From an uncultured Saprospiraceae bacterium (lineage in GTDB: Bacteria > Bacteroidota > Bacteroidia > Chitinophagales > Saprospiraceae), in NCBI GenBank assembly GCA_937961455.1, contig CALGNN010000096.1, positions 1 through 52,838 on the forward strand: a DNA stretch of 52,838 nt. The letters are read 5' to 3'. The notes under the pieces were generated by a model. It was not told the origin of the DNA. It searched no databases and was given only the letters and a program-made list of their open reading frames with translations. Both the position numbers and the translations under genes were made by a program. Of the stretch, positions 18,661 through 37,389 are shown piece by piece; the first letter of the stretch is position 1, and every line of letters begins with the position of its first letter.

Positions 18661-21348
18661 TTATTGACTCCCATCTCCTTCTTCAGTTTCATCCTCATCA
18701 ACACTTACCGCGCCACAACCAGCTACAATAGCAAGAAAATCTGATCCAGCCTCCACAGTAAAACCACTATTTAGTTGAACATATGTTGAGGCATTATAGG
18801 TAACATTCGCGCCTAATTCTACAACAGCATCTGAAGCTATATAAGTTGTAGACTCGATGAGTAAGGTTGTCCCATTTACATAGTTACCTGTCTCATTAAC
18901 ATCCGTGTCACAAGCTACCGGGTCAATTATTTGAACCGTATAATCTTCAACTTCTCCATAAGTAAATGATTCACATGAATTAGGTATCGAATTATATTTC
19001 ATAGAAATTCTCATTCTAACATTGCCTGGTGAGGCTGTTGCTGGTATATTTATATTTCCAGATACTGCAGTTGTATTCGTGCCTCCAGCATCATAGACTA
19101 ATTCACCAGCATCATCAAAACTTCCATTATTATTAAAGTCAATCCAAATCACGAAATACTCTCCATAGGTTGTTCCTGAATATCCTTGTGTGAGTGTAAA
19201 AGGATAGTTCTGCCCCAATTCCATATCATAAATAATTGAAGAGTAATCACCATAACCTCCATCAGATCCCGTAGTATTCAAATTACCATCAATTTCAACA
19301 CTTTCAATCCATTCTTCCGAAGCATCATTTCCATTTGAATTACAATAAGTTACATCTTGGGTATCAAAAATATATGTCGATGAAGCTGTTCCAGCTCCAC
19401 AATTATTGGAAGGTGTAACTCTCCAATAGTACGTCGTATTAACATTCAAGCCACCAGTAGGTGCATAAGTTGTGGCGGCTGTATTTGCTGAATTAAAAAT
19501 ATTACTAAAGGCTGCATCAGTTGCTATTTCAATTAAATAGCTCATTGCATCAGCAGATGGAGACCAAGTGAAATTTGTAGTTATTGGAACATCCATTGAA
19601 GCATCAGCAGGGCTCGTTAAACTAACCGCGGCTGGAACTCCATCTTGTATGATTAAAGTTAAGTCCAAGTCTTTAGAATCTCCCGAAGCAACTGTCCCTG
19701 TAATGGTGATAAAATAACTTCCTGCTGCTTGACTCCCGGTATTGGATACTGTCAAAGTGGTAGAATTTCCAGGAATTACATTTGCCGAACCTAGGCTTGT
19801 TGTAATACTACCTGCATTTGTTACTAGACTGAGAGTTACAGGATCAGTAAACCCTAGCAGTGAGTTAACTTCAATCTCATAGACAGCATCATTAGGTGCA
19901 CAAATTTCTTGAATTGGAGCTGGGCTTGTCAAAGTAAAATCTGCAATACACTCTCCATTAACTCCAGGATTTAATTCAAGAAGGCTATTATAAACATTTA
20001 ATCTTCCACCTGAAACTGTGATTCCAGCTAAATCTGAGATCGGGTCTGTGCCATCCATTAGCGCAGTTTTAAGCGCTAATGCATATGTACCAGGATCATT
20101 TTTATAATTACTAATAAAGTCATCACAAGCACCTGCTAATAAAAGTGCAACAGCTCCAGCAACATGTGGTGTCGCCATAGAGGTTCCTGTATTATTCCCA
20201 TAGCTATTTCCAGGCAATGTAGATAGTACGCCTGTACCTGGTGCACCTAAATCAATATTTACTGCACCAAATGCTGCTCCTCCATTTATATTATCTGTAC
20301 TTGTTGTATTTGTAACCGCAATCATATAAGGACTTGGACAGGCGGTAGGAACATCTCCAACTACATCAACATTTACATTGTTATTGGCAGTAGCTCCTGC
20401 ACTCAATACTCCTTGAGCACCTAGATCATCGTAAATACCACACCATAGTGGGTAATCATTTGGGTTTCCATTATCAACGCCAAAGGAAGCATTGGTCGAA
20501 ACAACGAAAGCACCTTGTGTACCTCCTGAAGTGTTATAAAGTGTCCTTGCATCTAAGACATATCCATAAGCTGCAATAACAATTGATTCAACTCCAGAAG
20601 AACCCTCAATGGGCATAATTTTTACATCCCAATTTACACCTGTTACTCCCGTAGCATTATCTCCTTTCGCTCCTACCGTTCCACTTACATGCGTACCATG
20701 TGAATCATTAGAAAAGTTATCAGTATTATTAAATGGATTCCAACCATCATAATCATCTACATAGCCATTTGCATCATCATCAATTCCATTGTTAGGAATT
20801 TCCGCTGTATTTTTCCAAAGGTTGTCTACCAAATCAACATGATTAAGATCTATCCCTCCATCTATAACTGCAACAACGATTTCGTCACCCTGAGTAGTCA
20901 TTCCACCAGTAGTAATATCCCAAGCTTCTGGGGCATCAATATCAGCATCATTTGAACCACCAGTTTGACCTGTATTGTTTAATGACCATTGAGAATTGTA
21001 TTGAGGATCATCAGGTGTGGTTACCCTTGTAGTAATGTCTTTATGGTTGAACTGGGCTACGATAATATCCTTATGATTCCTTACTTGAGATAGTATTGCT
21101 ACTTGGTCATGGTTTCTAAAATTATATTGTAGTAACCAAATATTAGCAGTTCTTGATAAACATTGAGCGGCTCTAAATTTAAGATCTGAATTTTGAGCAC
21201 TTGCAAAATCATCTATGAATTCGTCTACATTGAGTTCCTTTTGCAATTTAACTATGATGTCACCATCAACAATCTCATGTTGTTGTTGGGAAAAAAGCAT
21301 ACTAAAGGAGCACAAAAACAAAAACGTTAGTGAAATGATCGACTTCAT
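18661..21348 (-). CDS. Secreted multidomain S8 subtilisin-like protease
   Basis: This 895-residue protein has a signal peptide (1-20), an I9-like propeptide region (to about 110), and an S8 catalytic domain (about 115-410) with D163 in AVIDGGID, H217 in HGTHVSG, oxyanion N286, and S390 in GTSMATPHVAG. Next come an Ig-like beta domain (about 470-575), a fibronectin-like domain (about 580-665), a GEVED domain (about 670-815, ending in the GEVEDYTV signature), and a 3-coathanger-stack module (about 820-875). The Gly-Cys pair that normally ends the last module is followed here by an unusual acidic tail of about 20 residues. It is probably exported and attached to or released from the cell surface. 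No T9SS type A domain is visible. It is monocistronic. Confidence 0.92.
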   Translation of the reverse strand: MKSIISLTFLFLCSFSMLFSQQQHEIVDGDIIVKLQKELNVDEFIDDFASAQNSDLKFRAAQCLSRTANIWLLQYNFRNHDQVAILSQVRNHKDIIVAQFNHKDITTRVTTPDDPQYNSQWSLNNTGQTGGSNDADIDAPEAWDITTGGMTTQGDEIVVAVIDGGIDLNHVDLVDNLWKNTAEIPNNGIDDDANGYVDDYDGWNPFNNTDNFSNDSHGTHVSGTVGAKGDNATGVTGVNWDVKIMPIEGSSGVESIVIAAYGYVLDARTLYNTSGGTQGAFVVSTNASFGVDNGNPNDYPLWCGIYDDLGAQGVLSAGATANNNVNVDVVGDVPTACPSPYMIAVTNTTSTDNINGGAAFGAVNIDLGAPGTGVLSTLPGNSYGNNTGTSMATPHVAGAVALLLAGACDDFISNYKNDPGTYALALKTALMDGTDPISDLAGITVSGGRLNVYNSLLELNPGVNGECIADFTLTSPAPIQEICAPNDAVYEIEVNSLLGFTDPVTLSLVTNAGSITTSLGSANVIPGNSTTLTVSNTGSQAAGSYFITITGTVASGDSKDLDLTLIIQDGVPAAVSLTSPADASMDVPITTNFTWSPSADAMSYLIEIATDAAFSNIFNSANTAATTYAPTGGLNVNTTYYWRVTPSNNCGAGTASSTYIFDTQDVTYCNSNGNDASEEWIESVEIDGNLNTTGSDGGYGDYSSIIYDMELGQNYPFTLTQGYSGTTYGEYFVIWIDFNNNGSFDDAGELVYDAGGTNTTAVSGNINIPATASPGNVRMRISMKYNSIPNSCESFTYGEVEDYTVQIIDPVACDTDVNETGNYVNGTTLLIESTTYIASDAVVELGANVTYNASTYVQLNSGFTVEAGSDFLAIVAGCGAVSVDEDETEEGDGSQ

Positions 21349-21517
21349 GAATAGAAATATTTAAATATGAAAATGTTTAAGTTTTTGAAATTAATCAATT
21401 TTATCTGGACTTAAAGACTTAAGGCAGAGATATGTATTAAAATTAGCACTATTGGCTTAGCAGTATTGGCAGCAATAAGAGTGAAAAATTCTTTTTTATA
21501 TTCAATTCGATTTTAAC

Positions 21518-21548
21518 TTGATTTATTCAAATAATACATTTAGGTTTG
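21518..21548 (+). promoter_or_regulatory. Promoter of the his operon
   Basis: TTG at 21518-21520 and TAGGTTTG at 21541-21548, 20 nt apart, match the Bacteroidota -33/-7 consensus exactly. The start of transcription should lie near 21552-21553, only a few bases before the leader-peptide ATG at 21556. Nothing else was recognised in 21349-21517, apart from two TATTGGC copies 14 bp apart near 21450. Confidence 0.75.
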
Positions 21549-21555
21549 TGGTCAC

Positions 21556-21609
21556 ATGAAAATAAATCAATTACATCATCATCATTTACTTAATCGACTT
21601 CGGGCGTAA
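21556..21609 (+). CDS. hisL: his operon leader peptide with four consecutive His codons
   Basis: A 17-codon ORF, ATG to TAA, encodes MKINQLHHHHLLNRLRA. Four CAT codons run without interruption at 21574-21585. Four consecutive His in a 17-residue peptide upstream of hisG, with a promoter in front and an intrinsic terminator behind, is the classical arrangement for ribosome-mediated attenuation: histidyl-tRNA shortage stalls the ribosome on the His codons and prevents termination. Three to four bases are predicted between transcription start and ATG, so the mRNA is nearly leaderless and lacks a Shine-Dalgarno, as is common in this phylum. The peptide itself needs no function. Confidence 0.85.
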   Translation: MKINQLHHHHLLNRLRA

Positions 21610-21630
21610 GGGTAATTGATATATGTAATT
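21566..21630 (+). promoter_or_regulatory. Candidate alternative RNA hairpins over the His codons
   Basis: ATCAATTAC (21566-21574) can pair with GTAATTGAT (21612-21620, 9 bp), while the overlapping AATTACAT (21569-21576) can instead pair with ATGTAATT (21623-21630, 8 bp). Inside lies a small CUUCGG tetraloop hairpin (21595-21606) over the last leader codons. Both large pairings include the first His codon, so ribosome position would decide which forms. I did not find a strong antiterminator that pairs with the terminator's first arm. Confidence 0.5.
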
Positions 21631-21640
21631 TGACATAAAA

Positions 21641-21674
21641 AACCTCGTCTGGACAATCAGACGAGGTTTTTTTT
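21641..21674 (+). terminator. Attenuator terminator of the his operon
   Basis: AACCTCGTCTG (21641-21651) pairs perfectly with CAGACGAGGTT (21658-21668) over a 6-nt loop, and the second arm runs into eight T (21667-21674). An A-run before the first arm can extend the stem. It lies 35 nt before hisG, after the leader peptide, so it can only serve as a regulated terminator for the operon. Confidence 0.92.
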
Positions 21675-21708
21675 ATACCTATTGATTGCTCAGATGTAAA
21701 AAACAAAC

Positions 21709-22566
21709 ATGAGTAATCTAAAATTAGCCATTCAAAAAAGTGGAAGACTTCACCAAGAGTCTTTAAGCTTATTAAAAGATTGTGGAATCACAATTGACAA
21801 CGGGAAAGATCAATTAAAAATCAATGTCCCTAATTTTCCTTTAGAAATTCTTTACCTAAGAAATTCCGATATCCCTCAGTATGTCTATGATGGTACAGTT
21901 GATATAGCTATTATAGGATCAAATACCATCGAAGAAAAAGCAAAAGAACTTAGAATTGTAGAAAACTTAGGCTTTGCAAAATGTCGTCTTTCACTAGCGG
22001 TTCCAAAAAATGAGCAAGTTCAAGACCTATCATACTTTCAGAATAAAAAAATTGCGACTTCTTATCCCAATACCCTTAAATCCTTTTTAGAAAAGAATCA
22101 CATCAAAGCAGAAATCCACACCATTTCAGGCTCTGTTGAAATTGCACCTAATATTGGTCTAGCAGATGGTATTTGTGATTTGGTTAGTTCTGGAAGCACC
22201 TTATTTAAAAATGGATTAGTAGAGACTTCAATTGTACTTGAGTCAGAGGCCGTATTAGCTAGTACTGTAAAACTCTCTATTCAAAAACAAGAGATCCTTG
22301 ACAAATTACTATTCAGAATAAGAGCATTACTCAGAGCAAGAAAGCAAAAGTATATTTTAATGAATGTGCCAAATGATAAAATTCCTGATATCACCAAAAT
22401 ACTTCCTGTATTAAAAAGTCCAACCATCATGCCTTTAGCTCAAGAAGGATGGAGTTCGCTTCACTCAGTGATCGAAGAAAACAAATTTTGGCGTGTGATA
22501 GATGATCTAAAAGAAGCGGGAGCGGAAGGAATATTAATTATACCTATCAATAAAATGGTTTTATAA
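21709..22566 (+). CDS. hisG: ATP phosphoribosyltransferase
   Basis: The 285-residue cytoplasmic enzyme catalyses the first step of histidine synthesis, joining PRPP and ATP. It starts with the typical LKLAIQKSGRL and shows the periplasmic-binding-like core (DVAIIGSNTI-type segment VDIAIIGSNTIEE and the PRPP loop near EIAPNIGLADGICDLVSSGSTL, about 142-165). At 285 residues it is the long form, with a C-terminal ACT-like regulatory domain (about 210-285), so it should be inhibited by histidine and not need HisZ. It follows the attenuator by 35 nt and its TAA overlaps the hisD ATG by one base. Confidence 0.96.
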   Translation: MSNLKLAIQKSGRLHQESLSLLKDCGITIDNGKDQLKINVPNFPLEILYLRNSDIPQYVYDGTVDIAIIGSNTIEEKAKELRIVENLGFAKCRLSLAVPKNEQVQDLSYFQNKKIATSYPNTLKSFLEKNHIKAEIHTISGSVEIAPNIGLADGICDLVSSGSTLFKNGLVETSIVLESEAVLASTVKLSIQKQEILDKLLFRIRALLRARKQKYILMNVPNDKIPDITKILPVLKSPTIMPLAQEGWSSLHSVIEENKFWRVIDDLKEAGAEGILIIPINKMVL

Positions 22567-23855
22567 TGCAAACATATGTGAGTCCTAGCAAAAGTGAATG
22601 GATTGGATTGTGCCGACGATATTTTCCCAATCCACAAGAATTAGAAACCATAGTTAATGCTATCATTAATGAAGTCAAAGCTAATGGAGATCAGGCTTTA
22701 TTTAAGCTTACTAAAAAATATGATAAAGTTGATCTATTGGAGTTTAAAGTACCTACCGACTCTATTGAGAAATTAACATCTTCAATTCCAGCATCTCTAA
22801 AGGAGAGTATTGCAATAGCTAAATACAATATTGAAAAGTTTCACAATTGCTCCATCCCTGATGAACGAAAGATTGAAACAACGAAAGGTGTTTTCTGCTG
22901 GTCTAAAAGAGTTCCTATTGAGAAAGTTGGCCTTTATATTCCTGGAGGCACAGCGCCTCTTTTTTCAAGCATATTAATGCTGGGCATTCCAGCTATGATT
23001 GCTGGATGTAAAGAAATCATTTTATGCAGTCCTCCGAATAAGGAGGGCTTGCTCTCCCCTGTCGTTTTATATACAGCTCGATTATTAGGAATAGAAAATA
23101 TCTATGCCTTAGGTGGAGCACAAGCTATAGCTGCTATGGCATATGGAACTGAAAGCGTTCCTTCGGTAGATAAAATATTTGGACCTGGAAATTCTTTTGT
23201 AACGAAAGCAAAAGAACTTGTATCTAAATCTACAGTTGCTATTGACATGCCCGCAGGACCTTCAGAGGTCTTGATTATTGCTGATGAATCAGCTGATCCT
23301 GAATTTTTAGCAGCAGATCTTTTAGCTCAGGCTGAACACGGACCTGATAGTCAAGTAATGATTGTCAGCAATTCAATGGACATTTTACAGAAGACACAAT
23401 TAGCTATAGCAACACAGATTAAAAACTTACCCAGAAAGAATATAGCCGAGCAAGCATTGTCACATAGTAGATCTATTTACTTTAAGAATATTAATCGTTG
23501 CTTCGAATTTAGCAATGAGTATGCGCCTGAACACTTGATTCTTTCACTCCACAATGCATTATCGCATATTGATAAAATAACGAATGCAGGTTCCGTTTTC
23601 CTAGGAAAATACAGTTGTGAAAGCGCTGGAGATTATGCCTCTGGAACCAATCACACTTTACCCACTAATGCCAATGCAAAAGCCTATAGCGGAGTATCTG
23701 TTGAGTCATTCCAAAAGAAAATAACTTTTCAACGTATTACAAAAGAAGGACTTCAAAAACTTGGCCCTCATATTGAAATATTAGCAGATGCAGAAGGACT
23801 ACAGGCTCATAAAAATGCTGTTTCTATCAGACTCAAAAAAATTAAAAATGTTTGA
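22566..23855 (+). CDS. hisD: Histidinol dehydrogenase
   Basis: The 429-residue zinc enzyme converts L-histidinol to L-histidine in two NAD-dependent oxidations. It keeps the zinc ligands Q255 and H258 in [12 protein letters not shown]356 and H416, the catalytic E322/H323 in APEHL, H363 in TNHTLPT, and the nucleotide-binding PGGTAPL stretch. Numbering closely follows the Escherichia coli enzyme. It begins by a one-base overlap with hisG and overlaps hisC by 8 nt. Confidence 0.97.
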
Positions 23856-24876
23856 TTTAAATAAAATTACAAGAGCTCACATTAAAGATATTGAGGCTTA
23901 CTCAAGTGCGCGGAAAGAGTACGAAGGCGATCAAGGTATTTTTTTAGATGCAAATGAAAATCCTTTTGGTCAATTAAATAGATACCCTGATCCAAACCAG
24001 AAAGGATTAAAGCAAGTACTTTCTAAGCAAAAAGGGATATCTGAGGAACAAATTTTTATAGGAAACGGAAGTGATGAGATCATCGACTTGGCTTATAGAA
24101 TATTCTGCACTCCATCTGAAGATGCAGCTTTATCTTTTAGTCCAAGCTTTGGCATGTATGAAGTCAGTTCAAGATTTAATGATGTAAGATTTATTAAAAT
24201 CCCCCTTGATGAACAATTCAATATAAATTTCCAAACTATAAAAGAAAGCCTAGAAAACCCTAAACTAAAATTGGTATTTATTTGCTCGCCTAACAATCCA
24301 ACGGGGAATTGCTTAGATGCAAATGAGATCCTTAAAATTCTTCAGTCTTTTCAGGGGATTGTATTCATTGATGAGGCATACATAGATTTTAGTAATGAGT
24401 CTTCTTGGCTTGAGAAACTAGATCAATTCCCCAATCTGATAGTTTCTCAAACCATGAGTAAGGCATGGGGTTTAGCAGCGGCCAGGATTGGTATTGGATA
24501 CAGCTCAAAGGAAATCATAGCGCTTTTCAACAAGGTAAAAGCGCCATATAACTTGAGTCAATTAAATCAAGATGCGGCCATAAAAGCATTAAATGATCCA
24601 TCTAGTTTTCGGCAAAATTTAAACAAAATAAAATTAGAAAGGAGCCGACTGACAGAAGAATTAATGAACATAAAGATTATTAAAAAAATATACCCAAGCC
24701 AGAGTAATTTCTTACTAGTGAAAGTAGATCAAGCAACAAAAATCTATCAGGCACTTTGTGATAAAAAAATCATCATACGAAATCGAAATACCTTAATTAA
24801 AGATCACTTAAGAATTAGTATTGGGACGAAATCAGAAAATAATGCATTGTTAAAAGCTTTGAAAGAATTATCATGA
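23848..24876 (+). CDS. hisC: Histidinol-phosphate aminotransferase
   Basis: The ATG at 23848 is preferred over an in-frame start 60 nt upstream, which lies deep inside hisD; it gives a 342-residue class I/II aminotransferase of usual size. It uses PLP and glutamate to make histidinol phosphate from imidazole acetol phosphate. K205 in [14 protein letters not shown] binds PLP, with D175/Y178 in FIDEAYID and the SPNNPTGN segment (147-154). It overlaps hisD by 8 nt and hisB by 4 nt. Confidence 0.95.
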
Positions 24877-25964
24877 AAAAAATACTTTTTATAGATAGAG
24901 ATGGGACCTTGGTCATTGAACCACCAGTTGATTATCAATTAGACTCCTTGGATAAATTAGAATTTTACCCAGGTGTTTTTAGATGGCTATCAAGGATTGC
25001 GGAAGAGTTAGATTATGAATTTGTGATGGTCAGCAATCAAGATGGACTTGGAACTGATTCGTTTCCAGAAGAACATTTTTGGCCAGCCCAAAATAAAATT
25101 ATTTCCGCTTTAAAAAATGAAGGCATTCACTTTACAGAAATCTTAATCGACAAAAGTTTTCCTGAGGATCATTCACCAAATAGAAAACCAGGAACGGGAA
25201 TGTTGCAAGCCTATTTATATGGAAACTATGATTTATCAAACTCTTATGTTATTGGAGACAGAGCATCTGATATGCAGTTAGCAAAAAACCTTGGAACCGG
25301 AAGTATATACATTGGTAATCAATGCGAACTAGAAACGCAGCTTTGTACAACTTCTTGGAAAGAAATTTATCGGTATTTAAAAAGCATCCCGAGGACTGGA
25401 ACAATTCAAAGAACTACTAAAGAGACTAACATAAGCATTAAACTTAATCTTGATGGAACTGGAAATTCGAAAATAGATACAGGACTAGGATTTTTTGATC
25501 ACATGTTAGAGCAAATCTCTAGACATGGAAATATGGATTTGACAATAATTGCTGAAGGCGACCTAAAGGTTGATGAGCATCATACAATAGAAGATGTCGG
25601 GCTCGCATTGGGTCAAGCATTTTCAAAAGCACTTGGCACTAAGAAAGCTTTACAAAGGTATGCCTACTTACTTCCTATGGATGATGCTTTGGCACAAGTT
25701 GCTATAGATTTTGGTGGCAGGCCTTGGTTGGTATGGGATGCCCAATTCAAAAGAGAAAAAATTGGAGATATGCCAACTGAAATGTTTCATCATTTTTTTA
25801 AGTCTTTTTCAGATACAGCTAAATGCAATTTAAATATTAAAGTAGAAGGAGAAAATGAACACCATAAGATAGAATCTATTTTCAAAGCATTTGCAAAGTG
25901 TCTTCAAAAGGCATGCTCCCTTACAGATAATTACAAAATACCTAGCACGAAAGAAACATTATGA
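24873..25964 (+). CDS. hisB: Bifunctional histidinol-phosphatase / imidazoleglycerol-phosphate dehydratase
   Basis: The 363-residue protein joins an N-terminal HAD-type histidinol-phosphatase (about 1-165; nucleophile region FIDRDGT with D8/D10, RKPGTGM, and [10 protein letters not shown]) to a C-terminal dehydratase (about 175-363; [21 protein letters not shown] and [11 protein letters not shown] metal motifs). The loop that holds the four Cys/His zinc ligands in the Escherichia coli phosphatase reads [15 protein letters not shown] here and has no cysteine, so that zinc site is absent. I recall that many Bacteroidota HisB share this, so activity is still expected. It overlaps hisC and hisH by 4 nt each. 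Confidence 0.95.
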
Positions 25965-26539
25965 TTGGAATTATTGATACAAATGCAGGCAACCAACTTT
26001 CAGTCAAAAATGCATTGAATAGACTGGGGTGTACTTGCTTAATAAGTGACGATGCAGATGCTTTAAGAAAATGTGATAAAATAATTTTCCCAGGGGTTGG
26101 TGAAGCTAAACATACAATGAGCCATATAAGAGAAAAGGCATTGGATCAATTTATTTTATCATATAAAAAACCGTTTCTCGGAATTTGTTTAGGCATGCAA
26201 ATCATGTCTAGCTATAGTGAAGAAGGCAAGACAGCTTGTCTTGGTATTTTCAAAACTGAAGCATTACACTTTCCAGAAAATGAAGTAGTGCCGCATATGG
26301 GCTGGAATAATCTTTTGAATTTTGAAGGAGATCTATTCAAAGGAATACAAAAAAAGGATGATTTTTATTTTGTCCATAGCTATTATATTCCAATTAATGA
26401 ATACAGCATTGCAAACTGTGACTACATACTGCCTTTTTGTGCTGCAATGAAAAAAGACAATTTTTATGCTACACAATTTCATCCTGAAAAGTCAGCAGAA
26501 ATTGGGGCCAAACTATTAGAAAACTTTATAAGCTTATGA
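25961..26539 (+). CDS. hisH: Imidazole glycerol phosphate synthase, glutaminase subunit
   Basis: The 192-residue class I glutamine amidotransferase supplies ammonia to HisF. The triad is C76 in LGICLGMQ, H174 and E176 in FHPEKS. The N-terminal stretch [16 protein letters not shown] and the PGVGEAK loop are typical of HisH. It works as a 1:1 complex with HisF, encoded three genes downstream of hisB in the same operon, and overlaps hisA by 4 nt. Confidence 0.96.
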
Positions 26540-27249
26540 GAATAATTCCAGCCATAGATATCATAGAGGGAAAATGTGTGAGACTTAGCCAAGGTCTGTT
26601 TGAAAGCAAAATCATTTATAATGAAGATCCTCTTGAAGTTGCTAAAATGTTTGTGGATTATGGTTTGCAATATTTACATCTTGTTGACTTAGATGGCGCA
26701 AAAAATAAACGTATAATTCATTATAAGGTTCTCGAAAGAATAGCTTCAAAAACGCCACTACAAATAGATTTTGGTGGTGGAATAGCCTCTGATGAAGATG
26801 CAAAAATTGCTTTTGAGTCTGGCGCTAAACAGATCACTGGTGGTTCTATTGCTGTACACAAAAAAGATTTATTTCTTCAATGGTTGTCTAGATATGGATC
26901 AGACAAAATCATACTAGGTGCAGATTTCAAAAACGAAAAAATTGTCATTTCAGGTTGGGAAAAAGAAACAGAAGAAAGCCTAATCAGCTTCGTCCAAAGT
27001 TATAAAAAGGAAGGCATTAAAAATGTAATAAGTACAGATGTAACTAAAGATGGAATGTTAGAAGGATCTTCATTAGAAACATACCAAGAACTTATCAATG
27101 CTACCAATCTTAATATCATAGCTAGCGGAGGAGTGGCTTCGATGGATGATTTATATCAACTTAAGGAAATTGGCTGTGAAGGAGTTATTATAGGCAAGGC
27201 TATTTATGAAAACAAAATTGATCTTAAAGAACTTTCTGAACTATGCTAA
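26536..27249 (+). CDS. hisA: ProFAR isomerase
   Basis: The 237-residue (beta/alpha)8 enzyme isomerises ProFAR to PRFAR. D8 in [14 protein letters not shown] is the catalytic base, and [12 protein letters not shown] carries the second catalytic aspartate. Phosphate-binding DFGGGIAS and IASGGVAS segments are intact in the two half-barrels. Start and stop overlap hisH (4 nt) and hisF (7 nt). Confidence 0.96.
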
Positions 27250-27998
27250 AAAAAAGAATTATTCCGTGTCTTGATATCAAAGATGGGAGAACTGTAAAAG
27301 GAATCAATTTTAAGGGTTTGAAGGACGCAGGCGATCCGATAGCTTTAGCTAAGAGCTATGTTGATCAAGGTGCAGACGAGTTGGTCTTTCTAGACATTAG
27401 TGCAACTGAAGAAAAGAGGAAAACATTAGCGCAGCTTGTAAAGAAAATAGCTCGAGAAATCAATATCCCTTTTACTGTTGGAGGTGGAATCAGCAGCATA
27501 GAAGATGTAAAAACGATTCTTTTATCTGGGGCAGATAAAATAAGCATTAATTCAGCTGCGGTAAAAAGCCCACTGCTTATTAAAGAAATTAGCAGTCGAT
27601 TTGGAGCTCAGTGCACTACCGTTGCTATAGACTATAAAAAAGTCCAAGGGAAAGATGAGGTATACATTTCTGGAGGAAAGATTGCAACAGGAATAAAATT
27701 AGCAGATTGGATAAAAAAAGTCACAGCTTTAGGTGCAGGTGAACTACTACTCACTTCAATGGATCACGATGGTAAAAAACAGGGATTTGATTTAAGCACA
27801 TTAAATGAAATCAGCTCAAAAATAAAAATCCCAATAATCGCATCTGGCGGTGCTGGGACTTCTCGAGATTTTTCTGAATTATTTACACATACAAACATCA
27901 GTGCAGGATTGGCAGCCAGTATTTTTCACTATAAAGAAATTACGATACCTGAACTGAAAAATTATTTACTCACAAAAAATATTGCCGTAAGATGTTAA
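27243..27998 (+). CDS. hisF: Imidazole glycerol phosphate synthase, cyclase subunit
   Basis: The 251-residue (beta/alpha)8 cyclase makes imidazole glycerol phosphate and AICAR from PRFAR with ammonia from HisH. Catalytic D11 in [10 protein letters not shown] and D130 in TVAIDYKK are present, as are the phosphate loops TVGGGISS and IASGGAGT. The second half is slightly divergent around [17 protein letters not shown]. It overlaps hisA and hisI by 7 nt. Confidence 0.96.
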
Positions 27999-28585
27999 TA
28001 GATTTTTCTAAATCAAATGGTTTAGTTCCAGTAATAATCCAGCATTACTTAAAACTTGAGATATTAATGTTGGGCTATATGAACAAAGAGGCTTTTGAAA
28101 AAACAAAAGCAGAAGGAAAAGTATGCTTTTATAGTCGGTCTAAAAATCGCTTGTGGACTAAAGGGGAAAGTTCAGGCAACTTTCTATTTGTAAAAAATAT
28201 AGACATTGATTGTGACCAAGACACTTTACTTATTCAAGTGCAACCAGCTGGAGCAGTTTGCCATACAGGCGCTATGAATTGTTTTAATAAAACCAATTCT
28301 AAAGGATTTATTTATGAATTGGAAGGCATCATTGAAAAGCGTTCAAAAGAATTCACAAACAAATCATATACAAAGGAATTACTGGATAAAGGTATTAATA
28401 AGGTAAGTCAAAAATTTGGAGAAGAAGCCATTGAATTAATTATAGAAGCAAAAGATCAGAATGCAAATTTATTTAAACAAGAATGTGCAGATGTTCTATA
28501 TCACTTATTAGTTTTACTTAAAGCAAAAAATATTACACTAGAAGAAGTAGAAAACATTTTGCACAAAAGAAACTCCAATAAATAA
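27992..28585 (+). CDS. hisI: Bifunctional phosphoribosyl-AMP cyclohydrolase / phosphoribosyl-ATP pyrophosphatase
   Basis: The 197-residue HisIE protein performs steps two and three of the pathway. The N-terminal cyclohydrolase (about 1-105) has metal ligands C74/D75/D77 in the CDQDTLL stretch, and C90 and C97 in [11 protein letters not shown]. The C-terminal pyrophosphatase (about 110-197) shows [13 protein letters not shown] and [13 protein letters not shown], with the acidic residues that bind magnesium. It is the last gene of the operon; no intrinsic terminator was seen in the 65 bp before the next gene. Confidence 0.96.
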
Positions 28586-37291: not shown

Positions 37292-37301
37292 TAATTACTC
37301 G

Positions 37302-37389
37302 CGGAAGAGGAGGGATTCGAACCCCCGGTACGCTTACACGTACGCTGGTTTTCAAGACCAGTGCATTAAACCAGCTCTGCCACTCTTCC
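37302..37389 (-). tRNA. tRNA-Ser (anticodon UGA)
   Basis: An 88-nt class II tRNA folds with an acceptor stem GGAAGAG/CTCTTCC, an anticodon stem CTGGT/ACCAG closing a loop with TGA at 34-36, a long variable arm (GCGTAC pairing with GTACGC-type complement), and the T-arm loop TTCGAAT. The discriminator base is G and CCA is not encoded. It decodes UCA serine codons. A -7-like TACTTTTG lies 81 bp upstream and a terminator 11 bp downstream. Confidence 0.95.

Follow-up and report, generated by a model that had tools for sequence, protein, structure and literature searches.

Organization of the his locus

The window, a stretch of 52,838 nucleotides (nt) on a contig of an uncultured Saprospiraceae bacterium (CALGNN010000096.1), carries a complete histidine operon in which hisG, D, C, B, H, A, F and IE are contiguous and each has an NCBIfam match. 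Directly upstream of hisG lies a compact element made of a promoter, a 17-codon open reading frame (ORF) with four consecutive histidine codons, hairpins and an intrinsic terminator (Table 1), all of which, together with the complete operon, had been listed in a first-pass annotation drawn from the sequence alone and are indeed present. The element is very probably a ribosome-mediated transcription attenuator with charged tRNA-His as the signal sensed. The leader stop codon is placed 99 nt before hisG, whose start (21709) comes 34 nt past the terminator T run. Folding of the region 21550-21680 gives -36.8 kcal/mol against a mean of -18.6 for shuffled sequences (z -5.8), a value equalled by 0 of 200 shuffles. 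One copy of the his leader element was found in the window's own genome.

Table 1. Coordinates of the his leader element and of the operon that follows it in the window
Feature	Position	Strand	Details	Basis
Promoter of the Bacteroidota sigma-A type	21518-21548	+	TTG 21518-21520, 20-nt spacer, -7 box TAGGTTTG 21541-21548	exact TAnnTTTG
Leader ORF encoding MKINQLHHHHLLNRLRA	21556-21609	+	ATG at 21556, 17 codons, TAA at 21607-21609	sequence; His-rich leader kept upstream of hisG in relatives
1:2 hairpin	21567-21633	+	His-codon region 21567-21591 pairs with 21610-21633	-14.0 kcal/mol
Four consecutive CAT (His) codons, predicted stalling site	21574-21585	+		sequence
2:3 antiterminator	21599-21653	+	21599-21606 with 21646-21653 and 21610-21613 with 21642-21645; TAA bulged between	own- versus swapped-partner test; pair counts in a flavobacterial alignment
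3:4 intrinsic terminator	21637-21674	+	21637-21651 pairs with 21658-21672; T run 21667-21674	-21.3 kcal/mol
Histidine operon hisG-D-C-B-H-A-F-IE, presumed regulated genes	21709-28585	+		ORFs and NCBIfam matches

The -7 box of the promoter matches the Bacteroidota consensus exactly, an element located at -12 to -5 according to the accessible text of PMC9723704. Transcription is predicted to start around 21553, so that the 5' untranslated region (UTR) ahead of the leader ATG would measure only some 3 nt. An exact -7 box no more than 60 nt upstream of the leader start was found in 46 of 75 species, where shuffled sequences gave a mean of 2.6 and a maximum of 8. A sigma-70 scan of this region of the window reported two sites, neither of which coincides with the leader promoter. 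The idea that the leader messenger is generally leaderless was rejected, since in the 46 species that have an exact box it ends anywhere from 4 to 40 nt before the leader ATG; a short 5' UTR is predicted in some species, including that of the window, and not in all of them.

Conservation of the His-rich leader

The distribution of the leader was examined by searching for hisG with the protein of the window in 61 genomes of the family (32 matches, 30 loci used) and 158 genomes of the class (69 matches, every one of them used and 2 already present in the family set). This provided 97 loci, or 96 after removal of L015, whose upstream sequence is missing. A leader was defined as a short ORF with at least three His in eight codons within 350 nt upstream of hisG, and such a leader is present in 85 of the 96 Bacteroidia loci, 26/29 in the family set and 59/67 in the rest of the class. 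Five dinucleotide-shuffled sets produced between 1 and 9 such loci out of 96 at this cut-off and none at four or more His, a level that is reached by 74 of the real loci, with 48 of them carrying at least five. Leu-rich short ORFs are also frequent at the lax cut-off (60/96) and fall to 10/96 at four or more residues; at the stricter cut-offs His leads all 20 residues, the next one being Ser with 18/96 at four or more and 6/96 at five or more.

Another 80 named loci, most of them Flavobacteriales according to their titles, formed a second set; 78 were usable after two were dropped, at least two overlap with the first set, and the leader is present in 76/78 at three or more His and in 59/78 at four or more. 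Among 882 control ORFs of at least 200 codons, taken from the other ORFs of the named loci, 14 reached three His and 1 reached four. Beyond the class, the leader was present in 36 of 60 sampled loci from other classes of the phylum, and in 1 of the 16 loci of this phylum sample whose HisG start missed the N-terminal motif. Genomes were sampled unevenly and kinship deprives related species of independence, an effect for which the swapped-partner tests described below control only in part. A short ORF rich in codons for the amino acid made by the operon behind it is accordingly found in the window and conserved in relatives, as the first-pass annotation had expected of a true leader, and this conservation argues against a chance occurrence. 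As a separate observation, the HisG of the window finds no match in 29 of the 61 sampled family genomes, so that histidine synthesis may have been lost, or HisG may have diverged, in about half of them.

Terminator and alternative pairings

An intrinsic terminator lies between the leader and the first gene of the operon. The structure had been described as a perfect 11-bp terminator with eight T; the terminator and the eight T stand, and the stem is 15 bp long when A:U pairs are counted, closed by the loop GACAAT. A hairpin followed by a T run was found after the leader in 80 of the 85 Bacteroidia loci that have one, with an energy below -10 kcal/mol in 75/85, and among leader-bearing loci this same energy threshold is passed in 75 of 76 of the named set and in 26 of 46 of the phylum sample. 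A simple terminator scan reported no site in 21350-22700, probably because its rule demands a T run placed after the stem and most T's here pair with a run of A. It is important to remark that the terminator finder sometimes picks an over-long hairpin and so yields doubtful arms; the rows concerned (L053, L054 and L063 in the 75-species set; L115, L121, L124, L141 and L160 in the named and phylum sets) were retained in the means.

Two further pairings precede the terminator. In the 1:2 hairpin the His-codon region is paired, and over 75 species this type of pairing has a mean of -13.94 kcal/mol with its own partner against -11.08 with swapped partners (standard deviation, SD, 0.25) and -7.59 with shuffled ones. 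The relatives mix CAT and CAC codons. The 2:3 antiterminator uses an arm (21599-21613) that straddles the leader stop codon and whose partner (21642-21653) is formed by the 5' arm of the terminator and the edge of its loop. At about -12 to -13 kcal/mol it is weaker than the terminator, and it had escaped the first-pass annotation, which reported no strong antiterminator arm and suggested that the switching RNA might depart from the textbook 1:2/2:3/3:4 set. Such a set does exist in the window, relatives maintain comparable pairings, and no unusual switching RNA is therefore needed.

Maintenance of the antiterminator was manifested in all three sets of loci. Over the 75 species own partners give a mean of -14.24 kcal/mol, against -10.56 for swapped ones (SD of 40 swapped means 0.26, the best of them -11.32) and -9.08 with shuffled leader segments. 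The corresponding values are -13.23 against -11.73 (SD 0.17) and -7.19 when shuffled in the named set, and -15.03 against -10.44 (SD 0.59) in the phylum set (n=26). The paired sequences themselves differ by group: AAUGGU with ACCAUU in many family members (L008, L014), CUCAGGCGAGG with CCCGUUUGAG in flavobacteria (L132, L146) and GGUAAGCU with GGCUUACC elsewhere (L077). Among the 176 rows with a terminator, in which at least four loci are counted twice (L005/L118, L007/L133, L025/L204 and L053/L179), 92 have an arm covering the stop codon, 73 one that lies upstream of it and 11 one that lies downstream.

Changes on both sides of a pair were counted in an alignment of 59 flavobacterial rows, that is, the 65 named rows of the flavobacterial terminator type minus L102, L103, L106, L109, L110 and L164, whose stop-proximal segment failed to align and which had been set aside in advance for this reason. 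In the terminator 16 cells are changed on both sides (shuffled mean 2.4) and in the antiterminator 21 (shuffled mean 10.5; 0/500 shuffles), other antiterminator measures being weaker (see below). In 7 of the 59 sequences a terminator base is C instead of U, and in 7/7 of them G is found both in the terminator and in the antiterminator partner. The outermost antiterminator pair and the two innermost ones are often unformed in this alignment (32, 17 and 28 unpaired, respectively). By computation, the window thus contains a predicted antiterminator that would exclude the terminator and would become available when a ribosome stalls at the regulatory codons.

Folding with a ribosome on the RNA

The effect of ribosome position was simulated on RNA extending to the terminator loop. 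Of the six ribosome states tried for the window, the 2:3 pairing appears only in those that place the ribosome on the His codons or one codon further on; it is blocked when the ribosome has reached codon 14 or the stop codon, and RNA devoid of a ribosome forms the 1:2 hairpin and then the terminator. This switching over the six states holds at three footprint sizes. Throughout the 176 rows, a ribosome on the His codons allows at least five 2:3 pairs in 171, against 32 when it is moved to the stop codon and 83 when it is absent; the expected order of states is obtained in 140 rows and reversed in 1. Submitted to the same simulation, 5 of 6 Escherichia coli attenuators display the expected order, trp only just (barely five pairs), and ilv fails. 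The arms found for E. coli trp, leu and ilv are unlike the textbook ones, which, together with the failure of ilv, indicates that the arm finder is not fully reliable.

Proposed mechanism and alternative explanations

According to the proposed mechanism, RNA polymerase would initiate about 3 nt before the leader ATG with a ribosome trailing it. When charged tRNA-His is plentiful, the ribosome would reach the stop codon and cover the 5' arm of the antiterminator, which comprises the final codons of the leader and the bases that follow the stop, and with this arm covered the terminator would form and hisG would stay untranscribed. When charged tRNA-His is scarce, the ribosome would stall on the four CAT codons, which would block the 1:2 hairpin and free the segment around the stop codon; this segment would then capture the 5' arm of the terminator before synthesis of the 3' arm, and transcription would enter the operon. 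The attenuator is supported by computation at the level of its parts, their conservation, the maintained alternative partners and the position-dependent folding. Leader translation, ribosome stalling, coupling between ribosome and polymerase and regulation by histidine are what these data would lead one to expect in cells.

Several observations weigh against this mechanism. No His-rich leader was found by the three-in-eight rule in 11 of the 96 loci. A 5' UTR of 3 nt as predicted in the window would be unusual, leaderless messengers amounting to 5.5% in Flavobacterium psychrophilum (accessible text of PMC9723704) and 5' UTRs shorter than 10 nt to about 3.7% in Bacteroides thetaiotaomicron (accessible text of PMC7366714). 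At the level of the antiterminator, the own terminator arm is seldom the best partner among the 75 (median rank 11, top four in 22/75), a low rank that may reflect neighbours sharing arms; in the flavobacterial alignment its paired cells reach 85.8% against 84.2% when shuffled (3/500), and its 4 pairs changed on both sides are matched by 84 of 500 shuffles. The simulation fails to give the expected order in 36/176 rows, and shuffled antiterminator regions attain it in 24-29/75 cases for the first set and 24-40/75 for the named set. Formation of 2:3 without a ribosome is no rarer than with shuffled segments (34/75 against 32-36 and 34/75 against 34-39), implying that termination by default in the absence of translation is not general, and both results mean that the simulation supports the mechanism and does not prove it. 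Finally, equilibrium favours the terminator (-21.3 against about -12 kcal/mol) in all of the ribosome states tried as soon as its 3' arm is largely synthesized, and the switch therefore has to depend on timing, through kinetic trapping.

This last imbalance invites the explanation that the attenuator is real in relatives and weak or non-functional in the species of the window, its antiterminator being weaker than its terminator. The pairings of the window are intact, its stop codon is flanked as in many relatives, it switches in the simulation, and a comparable imbalance exists in E. coli his (-30.1 against -18.7 kcal/mol), all of which makes a defect restricted to this species very improbable. 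A second explanation accepts the leader ORF as real and assigns it to the initiation of hisG by reinitiation, the hairpin being an incidental terminator or a processing site. Although such a role has been proposed for short leader genes near a structural gene, the distances reported for it in the accessible text of PMC4833913 place the end of the leader some 10-14 nt ahead of the start codon of the structural gene, with a peak at 11-14 bp in Bacteroidetes. The 99 nt separating the two in the window, with a terminator in between, and the inability of reinitiation to explain the His run, the terminator or the alternative pairings render this option very improbable.

It could also be conceived that histidine, tRNA-His or another ligand is sensed directly, in the manner of a riboswitch or a T-box, and that the His run merely follows from the sequence needed for pairing. 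The location of the His codons within a conserved hairpin and the frequency of Leu-rich short ORFs at the lax cut-off are in line with this view. However, His stands out once the cut-off is raised, relatives mix the two His codons, no T-box model is present among the 11 Rfam matches up to E 5 in 20000-23000 of the window, and trpE-like loci of the same class have Trp codons in place of His codons in 14/15 cases, so direct sensing can be regarded as extremely improbable. The ribosome-mediated attenuator is consequently the explanation retained, and the control of his by histidyl-tRNA that the first-pass annotation had proposed is supported as an interpretation, although control by charged tRNA-His in cells would still be an extrapolation from these analyses.

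Related leaders

Attenuators of the same design are predicted before trpE-like genes, a separate operon, in the genome of the window and in its class, with Trp codons in the leader. In the window's own genome a Trp leader, MINKNWWWLNTFDKSRRD, followed by a terminator precedes a trpE-like gene (L259, contig C14), and a branched-chain leader, MLNIISLVVIIIIVVHT, also followed by a terminator, precedes ilvD (L287, contig C76). Leaders with at least two Trp in eight codons are present at 14 of 15 trpE-like loci, a count made without a shuffled control, and over 14 loci the trp antiterminator pairing averages -13.61 with its own partner against -10.27 with swapped ones. The matches to the trpE family are all below the curated cut-off, so the name rests on their near-full-length extent and on the Trp leaders. 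Regarding ilvD, 11 loci pass the cut-off, and only the case in the own genome is relied on here, its antiterminator being weak (-7.9).

In part of the family the his leader is associated with a tRNA gene. Of 30 family loci, 17 have a tRNA-Phe gene no more than 1000 nt upstream of hisG, and in 11 of the 17 (L005, L006, L008, L011, L012, L016, L019, L020, L022, L025 and L028) the tRNA-Phe(GAA) is placed 0-25 nt before the leader ATG, an arrangement from which the window differs. In 17/17 loci the tRNA-Phe is preceded by an exact -7 box at a distance of no more than 70 nt; given this box and the little room for another promoter in gaps of 0-25 nt, the tRNA is probably co-transcribed with the leader. 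In these 11 relatives the his attenuator probably also serves as terminator of the tRNA-Phe. When the tRNA-Phe sequence was used as query, the best match was at the his locus in all 11 genomes; the others were partial, mostly 75-87% identical (one of 23 nt, 96%), and probably correspond to other tRNAs. In the window itself the sole tRNA detected is a tRNA-Ser (anticodon TGA) at 37301-37389 on the minus strand. The divergent neighbour of the his element, also on the minus strand (18661-21348), encodes an 895-residue product whose translation resembles a secreted subtilisin-type protease.

Two other groups also have His-rich leaders. A family from another class of the phylum, f76 (L180-L184, L190, L198-L201, L203 and L220-L224), displays very His-rich leaders, such as HHAHHGHHH, situated 58-105 nt before hisG, and no terminator was found at these loci by the hairpin and T-run rule. 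Their spacer is C-rich and G-poor, with a C/G ratio of 3.59 over 16 loci against 1.00 over the 176 rows with a terminator, a composition suggestive of Rho-dependent attenuation. In family f39 (L090, L093, L094, L095 and L245) His-rich leaders occur with no convincing terminator and with a spacer that is not clearly C-rich (C/G 1.33).

Relation to known attenuators

The E. coli his leader (hisL, Rfam RF00514) shares with the window a run of His codons in a leader ORF and a terminator before hisG. It works through a relay of hairpins, and its layout is different, with an antiterminator arm at +35 to +50 after the stop and a terminator 61 nt after it. The layout of the window is more like that of E. 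coli thr. Both are compact, and in thrL the antiterminator arm overlaps the end of the leader and the stop (-9 to 0), with the terminator 20 nt from the first base of the stop; the paired arm of the window spans -8 to +6 relative to the stop and the distance to the terminator is 30 nt. The two differ in the codons sensed, Thr/Ile in thrL and, by prediction, His in the window, and in the TAnnTTTG type of promoter and the predicted 3-nt 5' UTR of the window. An antiterminator straddling the stop codon was considered as a new architecture and dropped, because thrL displays the same layout in the E. coli control.

With the Rfam His_leader model, whose gathering score is 49 bits, the window obtains 35.3 bits (E 0.0028) and the E. 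coli control 131.6 bits. The cut-off was reached by none of 20 relatives, nor by L001 (the window's own locus), L100, L115 or L146.

Regarding Bacteroidota, a structured 5' element without an Rfam hit has been described upstream of hisG in F. psychrophilum and is conserved in other Flavobacteriaceae genera; the same study reports strong clues for leader-peptide attenuation before amino-acid operons, which its accessible text does not specify (PMC9723704). Judging by its published description, the F. psychrophilum element probably belongs to the same class as that of the window. Short ORFs in long 5' UTRs recalling leader peptides have also been noticed in B. thetaiotaomicron (accessible text of PMC7366714). 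It was suggested in 2013 that amino-acid attenuators may originate in gammaproteobacteria with very few transfers (accessible text of PMC3766115). The breadth of the his attenuator in Bacteroidota argues against such an origin in the case of his. A literature search in which few papers were examined, and those in part, recovered none recognisable as describing a his leader attenuator in Bacteroidota. Among earlier surveys of amino-acid attenuators, that of Vitreschak et al. in 2004 is said to name Bacteroidetes/Chlorobi, and another was reportedly published by Lopatovskaya et al. in 2010.

Significance

The kind of attenuator is already known and had been hinted at in flavobacteria; the interesting parts are its breadth, the matching trp leaders and the tRNA-Phe located upstream in 11 relatives. 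A wider picture can be drawn tentatively, as possible rather than probable: his attenuation would be widespread in Bacteroidota and not a rare gammaproteobacterial import, and would operate on transcripts that have a short UTR or are linked to a tRNA, in a phylum making scant use of Shine-Dalgarno sequences, which would imply a close coupling of ribosome and polymerase. In one group of the family it would be attached to tRNA-Phe, a single switch both ending the tRNA transcript and gating the his operon, and elsewhere the hairpin would be gone, with a C-rich, G-poor spacer suggesting a Rho-dependent version.

Much of the class has an attenuator before its his operons, and at no locus tested did it reach the threshold of the standard RNA model; the sequence sets gathered here could seed a new RNA-family model. 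An explanation is also offered for the hisG element left unexplained in the accessible text of a published transcriptome study (PMC9723704). In a phylum that hardly uses Shine-Dalgarno sites, the his attenuator would constitute a direct test of transcription-translation coupling.
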